From the NCBI RefSeq assembly GCF_001570585.1, contig NZ_BBXF01000006.1, positions 1 to 64,000 on the forward strand: a stretch of 64,000 bases of DNA. Direction: 5' to 3'. Position numbers and translations under genes: made by a program. The notes under the pieces are model-generated. The model searched no databases. It saw only the letters and a list, made by a program, of their open reading frames with translations, and was not told where the DNA came from. This stretch comes from Herbidospora daliensis. GTDB taxonomy: Bacteria; Actinomycetota; Actinomycetes; Streptosporangiales; Streptosporangiaceae. This document shows positions 10,360 to 52,223 of the stretch, piece after piece (within the stretch, counting starts at the first letter, position 1; each line of letters begins with the position of its first letter).

Positions 10360-12090
10360 CCCCTGCCGGTAGGCCTCCTCGACGGCGTCGGCGAACCGGG
10401 CCATCGGCTCGCCGTCGCCGAGCAGATACCCGCGCAGGGCGCGGCGGGCGTCGGCGAGTTCGTCCTCGCCCGGGTCCTTCGACAGCTGGGCCAGGATCTC
10501 GGGCAGCTCCCGCAGGTCCTCCGACAGCAGGTAGGCCGCCTGGGCCGACGGATAGCGGGTGACGAACTCGGCCCGTTCCTTGTCGGCCACGTTGGTGACG
10601 ACGTAGGGCTTGCCCGAGGCCATGAAGTCGGCGACCACACTCGAGATGTCGCTGATCAGCAGGTCGGCGTCGTTGAAGCAGTCGTACAGGCTCGGCTTGG
10701 GGCCCAGCACCACCGTGCCGGCGTCGGGGTGTTCGCGGCGCAGCCGGGCCATGATCGCGCCGTGGGCGCGGCGGACCGTCATCGACCGGTGGCCGGTCAG
10801 CGGGTGGGGCTTGTAGACGACCCTGACCCCTTCGGCCAGCAGCGCGTCGACCAGGTGCGGGCCCATCGCCGCCACCGAACTGTGGAACAGGTCGTCGGTC
10901 CAGCCCTCCCAGGTGGGCGCGTAGAGCACCGACCGCGTCTGCGGACCTTTCTCCTGCATATGAGGCAGATTCCCGGCGCGAGCCACGGCCGGTCTTCGAC
11001 CGTCCGCGACTCGCTTGATTCCGGCCAACTGTGGCCGGCCCACCTCGACGATCGCCTCGTCGCGCACCCCGACCCCGGCCCGCCGGTAGCGGTCGCGACC
11101 GGCCGGCCCGGCCACCCACACCTGGTCGTAGACCTTCGTGTACGGGTTGAACGACGCCTCCTTGTCGCTGTCGCCGTGGCCGACGAACACGCTCACCACG
11201 CCCGGCACCCGCAACATGTGGATGTTGTTGCCGACGTTGGCGGCGAACAGCGCCACCCGGGCGCTGTCGAGCCCGCGGAAGTTCATCATGTCGACCGCCG
11301 AGGGGATGCACAGCACCGGCAGCGACGTCGGGGCCAGCGCGGTGAACAGCGGCCGTTCGCGCAGCACCACGATGGCCCGCCGGGGCAGCGCCTCCAGCAC
11401 GGGCAACCACATCGACGCCTGGTAGACCGCGTTGGCCGCGCCGGAGAAGTAGAGGATGACCTCGGGATCGTAGGCCCTGACCTGGTCGTCGACCAGCTGC
11501 ACGACCCGCCGCCGGTCGGCCACCGGCGCGGCGCGGCGCAGTTCCAGCCCGAGCACCGCCGTCACCACGGCCATGGCGGCCAGCGTCGCCGTCACCCCGG
11601 CCCCGGCGAGCCAGGTGTCGCCCGAGAGACCGGCCACCGCCGCGAGCACGACGGGCGGCACGTCGAAGTAGAGCAGCCGGGTCCCGCGCTGGCCGAGCAG
11701 CCGGCCGGGCGGCGCCTTCGGCAGCGTGACCTGGAGGTTGCGCGACTCGACCGGCCGCAGGTGGTGCCACCGGTGCAGGAACAGCGCCAGCCCGGTCTGG
11801 GTGGCCCGCATCGCGTGGAAGATGAACAGCCCGCCCGCCACCAGCTCGAACGGCAGGCCCAGCCGGGCCAGCAGCAGCACCGCCGCCATCTCGCGGGCCA
11901 GGAACCGGACCGTCACCCCCAGGTGGACCCGGCTCAGCTGGTCGGCCGCCGCCTTCGGCAGCACGAGCTCGGCGGCGTAGGACACGAGCACGGCGGCGGC
12001 GAACACCCACGGCGACGGCGCCAGCGCCGCCGCCACCAGCACCGGGTAGGAACCCAGCACTACGCCCGTGACCAGGACTTTCTTCCCCAT
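10339..12090 (-). CDS. CDP-glycerol:poly(glycerophosphate) glycerophosphotransferase family (TagB/TagF-like)
   Basis: 583 aa. The N-terminal third is membrane-associated, with several hydrophobic helices (VLVTGVVLGSYPVLVAAAL, LVAGGLFIFHAM, VTATLAAMAVVTAVLGLEL). The C-terminal part matches Glyphos_transf: FVGHGDSDKEASFNPY, SVLYAPTWEGW, VYKPHPLTGHRS and LLISDISSVVADFMASGKPYV. Such enzymes use CDP-glycerol or CDP-ribitol to add polyol-phosphate units to wall polymers at the inner membrane face. It starts 9 bp after the stop of the CDP-ribitol-type synthase gene, so the pair forms one operon and the donor is probably CDP-ribitol (inference). A 51-bp palindromic repeat copy lies in frame within the linker before SVLYAPTWEGW. 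Confidence 0.9.
   Translation of the reverse strand: MGKKVLVTGVVLGSYPVLVAAALAPSPWVFAAAVLVSYAAELVLPKAAADQLSRVHLGVTVRFLAREMAAVLLLARLGLPFELVAGGLFIFHAMRATQTGLALFLHRWHHLRPVESRNLQVTLPKAPPGRLLGQRGTRLLYFDVPPVVLAAVAGLSGDTWLAGAGVTATLAAMAVVTAVLGLELRRAAPVADRRRVVQLVDDQVRAYDPEVILYFSGAANAVYQASMWLPVLEALPRRAIVVLRERPLFTALAPTSLPVLCIPSAVDMMNFRGLDSARVALFAANVGNNIHMLRVPGVVSVFVGHGDSDKEASFNPYTKVYDQVWVAGPAGRDRYRRAGVGVRDEAIVEVGRPQLAGIKRVADGRRPAVARAGNLPHMQEKGPQTRSVLYAPTWEGWTDDLFHSSVAAMGPHLVDALLAEGVRVVYKPHPLTGHRSMTVRRAHGAIMARLRREHPDAGTVVLGPKPSLYDCFNDADLLISDISSVVADFMASGKPYVVTNVADKERAEFVTRYPSAQAAYLLSEDLRELPEILAQLSKDPGEDELADARRALRGYLLGDGEPMARFADAVEEAYRQGLMKQVL
10964..11014 (+). repeat. 51-bp palindromic dispersed repeat, copy 1 (intragenic)
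   Basis: Starts GGCAGATTC, then four variable bases, CGCGAGCCA, a variable palindromic centre, CCGTCC, and ends CTCGC. It is 41/51 identical by eye to copy 2. It lies within the glycerophosphotransferase gene in the antisense direction and adds 17 in-frame codons. Confidence 0.85.
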
Positions 12091-12099
12091 AGTGGGGGG

Positions 12100-50924: not shown

Positions 50925-51857
50925 GTGAGCGCCAGTGGCGGAACGAAGGCGATCGTCGCGGCGCTGGTCGCCAACTTGTCGATCGCGGTGGCGAAGTTCG
51001 TCGCCTTCTTGTTCACCGGATCGTCGTCCATGATCGCCGAGTCGGTCCACTCCGTGGCCGACTCGGGGAACCAGGCGCTGCTGCTGCTGGGCGGCAAGCG
51101 GGCGGCCCGTGAACGCACCGAGCAGCACCCGTTCGGCTACGGCCGCGAGCGCTACTTCTACTCGTTCGTGGTGGCGGTCGTGCTGTTCACGATCGGCGCG
51201 CTGTTCTCGCTGTACGAGGGCGTGCACAAGCTCCAGCATCCCGAAGACCTGACGTCCCCGCAGTGGGCGTTCGGCGTGCTGATCTTCGCGATCATCGCGG
51301 AGGCGTTCTCGTTCCGGACCGCGATCAAGGAGTCGCTGCCGTTCAAGGGCAACCTGACCTGGTGGCAGTTCATCCGCCGGTCGAAGTCGCCCGAGCTGCC
51401 CGTCATCGTGCTCGAAGACCTGGGCGCGCTGCTCGGCCTGATCTTCGCCCTGTTCGGCGTCACCATGGCGGTCGTCACCGGCAACGGAGTCTGGGACGGC
51501 GTGGGCACCGTGATGATCGGCGTCCTGCTCGGCGTCATCGCGATCGTGCTGGCCATCGAGACCAAGTCGCTGCTCATCGGCGAGAGCGCCGGCCCCGAGG
51601 TCGACGCGCAGATCCGCCAGGCCCTGGAGAGCGCGCCCGAGGTGACCCGGGTCATCCACATGCGCACCCTCCACGTCGGCCCCGAGGAGCTGCTGGTGGC
51701 CGCGAAGATTGCCGTCCAGCACGACGACACCGCCGCCGAGGTGGCCCGGGGCATCGACGAGGCCGAGCAGCGTATCCGCGCGGCCGTGCCGATCGCCCGG
51801 ATCATCTACCTCGAACCGGCCATCGAGGCGTCGTCAACGTCCGCGCAGCAGGCGTAG
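50925..51857 (+). CDS. cation diffusion facilitator family transporter (ZnT9/SLC30A9-like)
   Basis: 310 aa with about six TM helices. TM2 has ESVHSVADSGNQALLL (His/Asp metal site). In TM5 the usual His-x3-Asp is replaced by a Glu-Asp arrangement in VIVLEDLGALLGLIFAL, a hallmark I associate with the ZnT9-like subgroup. The C-terminal cytoplasmic domain (VTRVIHMRTLHVGPEELLVAAKI) is the ferredoxin-like CDF tail. It probably exports zinc or another divalent ion. GTG 50925 follows GAGGGAG. It overlaps the convergent MerR gene by 24 bp. Confidence 0.9.
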   Translation: MSASGGTKAIVAALVANLSIAVAKFVAFLFTGSSSMIAESVHSVADSGNQALLLLGGKRAARERTEQHPFGYGRERYFYSFVVAVVLFTIGALFSLYEGVHKLQHPEDLTSPQWAFGVLIFAIIAEAFSFRTAIKESLPFKGNLTWWQFIRRSKSPELPVIVLEDLGALLGLIFALFGVTMAVVTGNGVWDGVGTVMIGVLLGVIAIVLAIETKSLLIGESAGPEVDAQIRQALESAPEVTRVIHMRTLHVGPEELLVAAKIAVQHDDTAAEVARGIDEAEQRIRAAVPIARIIYLEPAIEASSTSAQQA

Positions 51858-52223
51858 CGCCTTCTCCTTCTCGAAGTCCAGCGCCCTGCGGGGCGCCTGG
51901 ATGCGCCCGATCCGCACGCCCAGGTCTCTCACGGCCTGGGCGACGGCCGGTTCCGACAGCGCCCGCAGCGCGAAGGCGAGCTCGCCGGGCGAGACGTCGA
52001 ACCGCTTCTCCAGCTCCATCGCCAGGGTGACGGCGGCGAGCTCCTCGTCGCCGAAGCGGCGGTGGGAGCGCGAGACGTGGACGGCCGGAGGCCGGCCATG
52101 GCTCGCGCCATGAATCTGCCGGGGAGCTGCGTCGCGGACGGGTGGGAGTAGCCCGAGCGCCTCCCGATATCGCAGCATTCTGGGCGACATGCCCAATTTG
52201 GCGGCGGCCTCCGTGATGCGCAT
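51834..52223 (-). CDS. MerR-family regulator carrying an in-frame repeat insertion
   Basis: 129 aa. The HTH ([31 protein letters not shown]) is typical, and [37 protein letters not shown] resumes the wing and dimerisation helix. Between them lies an extra segment ([20 protein letters not shown]) encoded by repeat copy 3 (52070-52120). Normal members run nearly straight from PPVRD to the [13 protein letters not shown] wing. The insert lies in the wing of the DNA-binding domain, so activity may be lost or altered. It diverges from ahcY (94-bp gap) and could control it, or the CDF gene it converges on. Confidence 0.85.
52070..52120 (-). repeat. 51-bp palindromic dispersed repeat, copy 3 (intragenic, in MerR)
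   Basis: Read on the minus strand it starts GGCAGATTC and ends CTCGC, exactly 51 bp like the other two copies, and is 43/51 identical by eye to copy 2. Being 17 codons long it preserves the MerR frame. Confidence 0.85.

Follow-up and report, generated by a model that had tools for sequence, protein, structure and literature searches.

A genus-restricted family of dispersed hairpin repeats in Herbidospora

Three repeat copies and their host genes

The window, i.e. the whole stretch of 64,000 nucleotides that was analysed (contig C6:1-64000 of the Herbidospora daliensis genome G000; 8.52 Mb in 18 contigs), has a G+C content of 71.7%. It contains three copies of a repeat with a 51-bp core, situated as in the preliminary description at 10964-11014 (+), 13528-13578 (+) and 52070-52120 (−). 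Comparison within the window gave core identities of 41/51 for copies 1 and 2, 43/51 for copies 1 and 3, and 43/51 for copies 2 and 3; the first and last values equal those previously counted by eye. The rest of the window did not exceed 31/51, and the reverse strands of the copies themselves reached 32 and 33/51. Rfam gave no match in the window. A hairpin at 42970-43010 resembled the stem part of the repeat only (model positions 15-53), without the tag described below, with E values of 0.02 and 0.55 on the two strands.

Two of the copies lie inside genes, as had been described. Copy 1 is antisense within the ORF at 10339-12090 (−), and copy 3 lies on the sense strand, in frame, within a gene for a MerR-type regulator, where the insertion point directly follows the matched MerR HTH stretch. 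Copy 2 is the intergenic one, between ORFs 12100-13515 (−) and 13603-15084 (+). The orthologous sites were then compared among seven Herbidospora genomes (G000 to G006). Copy 1 was present in G000, G002 and G004, and the site was empty in four of six relatives (G001, G003, G005 and G006). Copy 2 was single in G000 and G003 and a head-to-tail dimer in G002, with four of six relatives empty (G001, G004, G005 and G006). Copy 3 was found in G000 and G002, and five of six relatives were empty (G001, G003, G004, G005 and G006). Relative to the empty sites the net gain was 60 bp for copy 1, 60 bp for copy 2 and 57 bp for copy 3. The inserted unit is therefore about 60 bp and not 51 bp as first thought, because a degenerate leader upstream of the tag GGCAGATTC is part of the insertion. 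The gain corresponds to 20 codons in the glycerophosphotransferase-like gene (copy 1) and 19 in the MerR regulator (copy 3). As both net lengths are multiples of three, the empty relatives are predicted to keep the reading frame.

Coordinates of the repeat units, the parts of copy 1 and the two host genes in the window
Feature	Position	Strand	Remarks
Copy 1 unit, ~60 bp	10955..11014	+	From comparison with empty relatives; ends ambiguous by a few bases
Copy 1 leader	10955-10963	+	
Copy 1 tag	10964-10972	+	
Copy 1 variable bases	10973-10976	+	
Copy 1 hairpin	10978-11014	+	
Copy 1 target T(T)	11015-11016		
Copy 2 unit, 60 bp with flanking TT	13521..13580	+	From comparison with empty relatives
Copy 3 unit	52070..52130	−	Net +57 bp, ~4 target bases replaced
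Copy 1 host gene, PF04464 glycerophosphotransferase-like, 583 aa	10339..12090	−	Insertion at ~residues 359-379
Copy 3 host gene, MerR-family regulator, 129 aa	51834..52223	−	Insertion at ~residues 32-52

Distribution, structure and genomic position of the family

A search of G000 with the pattern GGCAGATTCNNNNCGCGAGCC, allowing up to two mismatches, yielded 37 matches compared to 1 for the reversed control. A covariance model was built from 25 copies of this genome. With 150 of 27,998 first-look candidates scored, the model gave 91 matches at E<=1 and 46 at E<1e-4. Two of the 46 duplicate another match on the opposite strand, so that at least 44 distinct places remain. All seven Herbidospora genomes matched at E<=0.001, with 53, 65, 137, 66, 72, 81 and 33 matches per genome, opposite-strand duplicates counted. 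An exact-pattern scan of the genomes of 84,980 species found 95 stretches, and among the 80 matches listed 78 were from Herbidospora (six named species). The other two, acidobacterial MAG contigs that matched the 24-base pattern, were dropped, as the match stops beyond the pattern. When 200 genomes from the taxonomic family were searched under stricter filters, matches at E<=1e-6 occurred only in the seven Herbidospora genomes, i.e. in 1 of 68 genera. We conclude that the repeat is a real, genus-restricted dispersed family. Among the papers listed in literature searches on Herbidospora repeats, none reports it, which is weak evidence that the family is unpublished.

The unit of about 60 nt consists of a degenerate T-rich leader of about 9 nt, the tag GGCAGATTC, four variable bases (bases 9-12) and a 37-nt imperfect hairpin ending in CTCGC. 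The tag and the right end are nearly invariant, and conservation of the leader begins near position −9 (126 copies). By eye, the leader contains no hairpin, and the unit has a single one. Paired changes maintain this hairpin: in an alignment of 81 of the 95 fetched loci, which was fitted to the model and hence leans towards structure, 96.5% of the cells were paired, and 11 two-sided changes were observed compared to 1.6 in shuffles. The stem nevertheless has conserved mismatches (C/T at 19/45, A/C at 21/43 and C/T at 25/39). The strongest covarying pairs did not include any between the four variable bases and the flanks. In one shortened copy (L005, G000:C3:361374), TCTCGCTT follows directly on the tag and left arm, and about 20 hairpin bases are missing.

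Most copies are intergenic. Among 153 classified copies 143 lay between genes, one edge case included, and 10 inside genes, compared to a coding density of 88%; the figure of 10 is a lower bound because our home-made gene caller missed copy 3. The earlier proposal that the element enters genes in frame thus holds for the insertions of copies 1 and 3, whereas entry into genes is uncommon in the family as a whole (at least 10 of 153). For 113 single intergenic copies we recorded the facing gene ends. A gene 3' end faced the right end of the element in 52 cases; in 19 of these the stop codon overlaps the end of the element (TCA 11, TTA 7, CTA 1), and in 10 more it lies within 5 bp. Thus, 29 of 52 facing 3' ends fell within −3 to 5 bp of the right end compared to 1 of 61 facing 5' ends, and at the left end 13 of 44 facing 3' ends fell within 5 bp compared to 1 of 69 facing 5' ends. 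At four readable sites (L003, L021, L050 and L020) the stop codon was already present in the empty site. By eye, copies in three species (L057, L329 and L328) have CTCAC for CTCGC at the right end, which creates a TGA stop inside the element for the facing gene. Head-to-tail arrays of two to four units with a spacing of 58-60 bp were also found (e.g. L096, L110, L142 and L172). Within an array the variable bases are mostly the same from unit to unit, an indication that arrays arise by tandem duplication and not by a new round of insertion.

Filled and empty sites, target and ortholog variation

We extended the comparison to 20 further G000 copies, for which 100 orthologous stretches were fetched; with one copy (L047) left out, 19 sites and 95 loci were aligned. 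The element was present at 24 of the 95 loci, and 71 were without a recognisable element, at least 3 of which keep visible remnants. At each of the 19 sites one or more relatives lacked the element, and in G006 none of the 18 sites tested bore a recognisable one. As empty sites were found in relatives for the three window copies and for all 19 of these sites, we conclude that the copies are insertions; some losses occur as well. Of 51 comparisons between a filled and an empty site, 47 showed a net gain of 55-63 bp; some sites entered these comparisons in several species. The preliminary description had named three copies alone, alike in all relatives, as the outcome that would argue against mobility. 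Instead, the search of the whole genome and its relatives revealed many copies, and the presence or absence at the same locus that it had asked for was seen between species of the genus. Its reading of the repeat as REP/MITE-like, in the sense of a dispersed palindromic family with many copies and variable occupancy of a locus, is borne out.

Insertion occurs mostly before T(T). Of the 51 empty sites, 25 have T at position 51 and 34 have it at position 52. An exact CTT was found in 13 of 51, compared to 0.8% of background positions, and clear before/after sites include ACGC^TTAG, GCC^TTTTCG, TTAC^TTCGG and a CTAC^CTTC-like site. Many empty sites are without CTT, those of window copies 2 and 3 among them, and C at position 50 occurred in only 22 of 51, little over background, so that a CT target is not proven. 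The consensus has no terminal inverted repeat by eye. Target duplications, which the preliminary description had proposed to look for, were not consistent over 121 copies outside tandem arrays (highest combined scores 1.8 at offset 73 and 1.67 at offset 60). Copy 1 in G004 is flanked by a 7-of-9 direct repeat that could be a target duplication; as a rule, a 9-bp duplication was unsupported over the 121 copies.

For 30 sites occupied in two or more species, mismatches between orthologous copies were counted. They were frequent in the leader (positions −6 to −1, 57/179), at positions 9-12 (32/120) and in the loop (17/90), and infrequent in the tag (9/270) and the stems (7/240 and 26/509); two flank intervals gave 117/1499 and 77/749. 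Of 30 pairs, 10 had differences at five or more of the 11 variable positions, as unrelated copies do (mean 5.96), and 17 had three differences or fewer. Part of this variation is reuse of one target by separate insertions. Another part looks like change in place, since at the site of copy 2 three species have an identical leader, TTCTTGG, but differ in the four bases. Elsewhere, a G003 copy (L343) lies at about the same place as the G000 copy L004 (L004/L031) with a different leader, a possible separate insertion at one target.

Mobilisation and relation to known elements

The preliminary description had proposed a search for an associated TnpA-REP-like transposase. The RAYT model NF047646 gave no match over the cut-off in any of the seven genus genomes or in 200 family genomes, with the control over the cut-off in 1 of 14 named genomes; sub-threshold matches occurred in 1 of 7 genus genomes and 19 of 200 family genomes. 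The Y1 transposase family (PF01797) gave no match in G000 and was found in one of the seven genomes, G001. This sole Y1 gene adjoins a TnpB-like ORF as an IS605-type pair (L244, G001:C8:352081-352434), and no repeat copy was seen by eye in the surroundings of the pair. The Y2 transposase PF04986 was found in 0 of 7 genomes, with its control equally silent (0/14). Genes beside or between copies at L157, L142 and L135 (six of ten proteins scanned) encoded no transposase; their products were ordinary enzymes, regulators, a sigma factor or proteins of no family.

REPs are described as carrying GTAG or CGTC tags, adjoining gene 3' ends, being able to supply stop codons and sometimes sitting in genes, and CGTC REPs likewise have no known transposase (PMC3733652). 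E. coli REPs have conserved stem mismatches, and TnpA-REP enzymes cut at CT dinucleotides with GTAG as a possible guide (PMC8266576). The Herbidospora repeat is similar in having a hairpin with a conserved unpaired 5' tag, stem mismatches and many copies (PMC3733652, PMC8266576). It is likewise mostly intergenic, favours gene 3' ends, can provide stop codons and occasionally lies in frame inside a gene (PMC3733652). It differs in its tag, GGCAGATTC followed by four variable bases rather than GTAG/GTGG or CGTC, and in its unit of about 60 bp with a T-rich leader (the hairpin alone being 37 nt) compared to 20-40 bp for REPs. Unlike RAYT-mobilised REPs, whose genomes carry a RAYT gene that REPs typically flank, it has no RAYT over the cut-off (0/7 and 0/200) and occurs in one actinobacterial genus only. 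Loss of the RAYT from genomes that keep REPs has been proposed (PMC6006769). A word search for actinobacterial terms found one table row in PMC12306157 and none in PMC3733652. As the repeat behaves like a REP and departs from REPs in tag, size and RAYT, we assign it to the REP class as a new, orphan variant. With IS200/IS605 elements it shares the lack of inverted repeats and of a consistent target duplication, a hairpin and a T-rich target, and its four bases lie at the foot of the hairpin, where the guide sequences of these elements lie (PMC8266576), and might act as a guide. However, its unit has one hairpin rather than one subterminal hairpin per end, and 6 of 7 genomes are without a Y1 transposase. 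The palindromic elements of Rickettsia, to which the repeat had been likened, resemble it in function only, as in-frame palindromic insertions in genes (PMC3733652); by description, host, size and the mostly intergenic position of the Herbidospora copies (143/153) set the two apart.

With moderate confidence, we favour the interpretation that this genus-restricted family is a mobile element of the REP/stem-loop kind, non-autonomous and moved as folded single-stranded DNA by an enzyme acting in trans. Movement is probably as single-stranded DNA. The enzyme would recognise the tag and hairpin of the folded strand, cut both ends of the unit at C^T-like junctions and insert the unit at a C^TT-like target. 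As every copy would re-create CTCGC^TT at its right end, further copies could insert or be duplicated head to tail. Candidates for the enzyme are a divergent or lost Y1/HUH protein or a protein of another type. A more specific proposal, which we regard as doubtful, is that an enzyme outside the RAYT family places a folded strand of 60 nt, which carries a new tag, beside stop codons, with the four bases and the leader serving as an exchangeable guide or being rewritten each round.

Several other explanations were weighed. A short, non-coding unit with many copies and precise empty sites could be a MITE that is cut and pasted by the DDE transposase of a resident insertion sequence, and the 7-of-9 repeat on both sides of copy 1 in G004 fits such an origin. 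We consider it very unlikely, as MITEs of this kind have terminal inverted repeats and target duplications of constant length, whereas the consensus has no such inverted repeat and the 121 non-tandem copies no consistent duplication. The absence of inverted repeats, together with one sharp end and one loose, T/A-rich end of variable length, would accord with RNA-mediated spread, in which a small hairpin RNA is copied into DNA and inserted and the leader corresponds to an A-rich 3' tail of the opposite strand; this we judge unlikely.

Mycobacterial MIRU are actinobacterial repeats of 40-100 bp, dispersed and in tandem between genes (PMC2734929), and by description the Herbidospora repeat is likewise short, dispersed, tandem and intergenic. 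Repeats of this type, spreading mainly via duplication and gene conversion through slippage or recombination, would account for the 58-60 bp units in head-to-tail arrays of two to four and for the intergenic bias. However, the majority of copies occur singly and are spread across the genome, with clean empty sites in relatives, and the hairpin architecture, the tag and the empty-site evidence set the family apart from MIRU by description; the probability of this origin is low. Functional hairpins held by selection, e.g. terminators or protein-binding sites, with the 'empty' sites as deletions, are suggested by the many copies at gene 3' ends and by tags and stems that vary less between orthologs (9/270, 7/240 and 26/509) than the flanks (117/1499). 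Yet at the empty sites several species have coding or intergenic sequence that is intact, G006 is without a recognisable element at 18 of 18 sites tested, and in-gene copies are present in only some species, which makes selection on fixed hairpins improbable as the general explanation. A role of the hairpin after its insertion is possible.

How REPs spread is considered poorly understood (PMC8266576). Across seven related genomes, in a group where no RAYT was detected, this family offers filled sites alongside empty ones, which fixes the unit size, the target and the lack of target duplication. With it, the mobilisation of an orphan REP can be tested directly. For the organisms themselves, insertions of this hairpin remodel gene ends and add about 20 codons to proteins.
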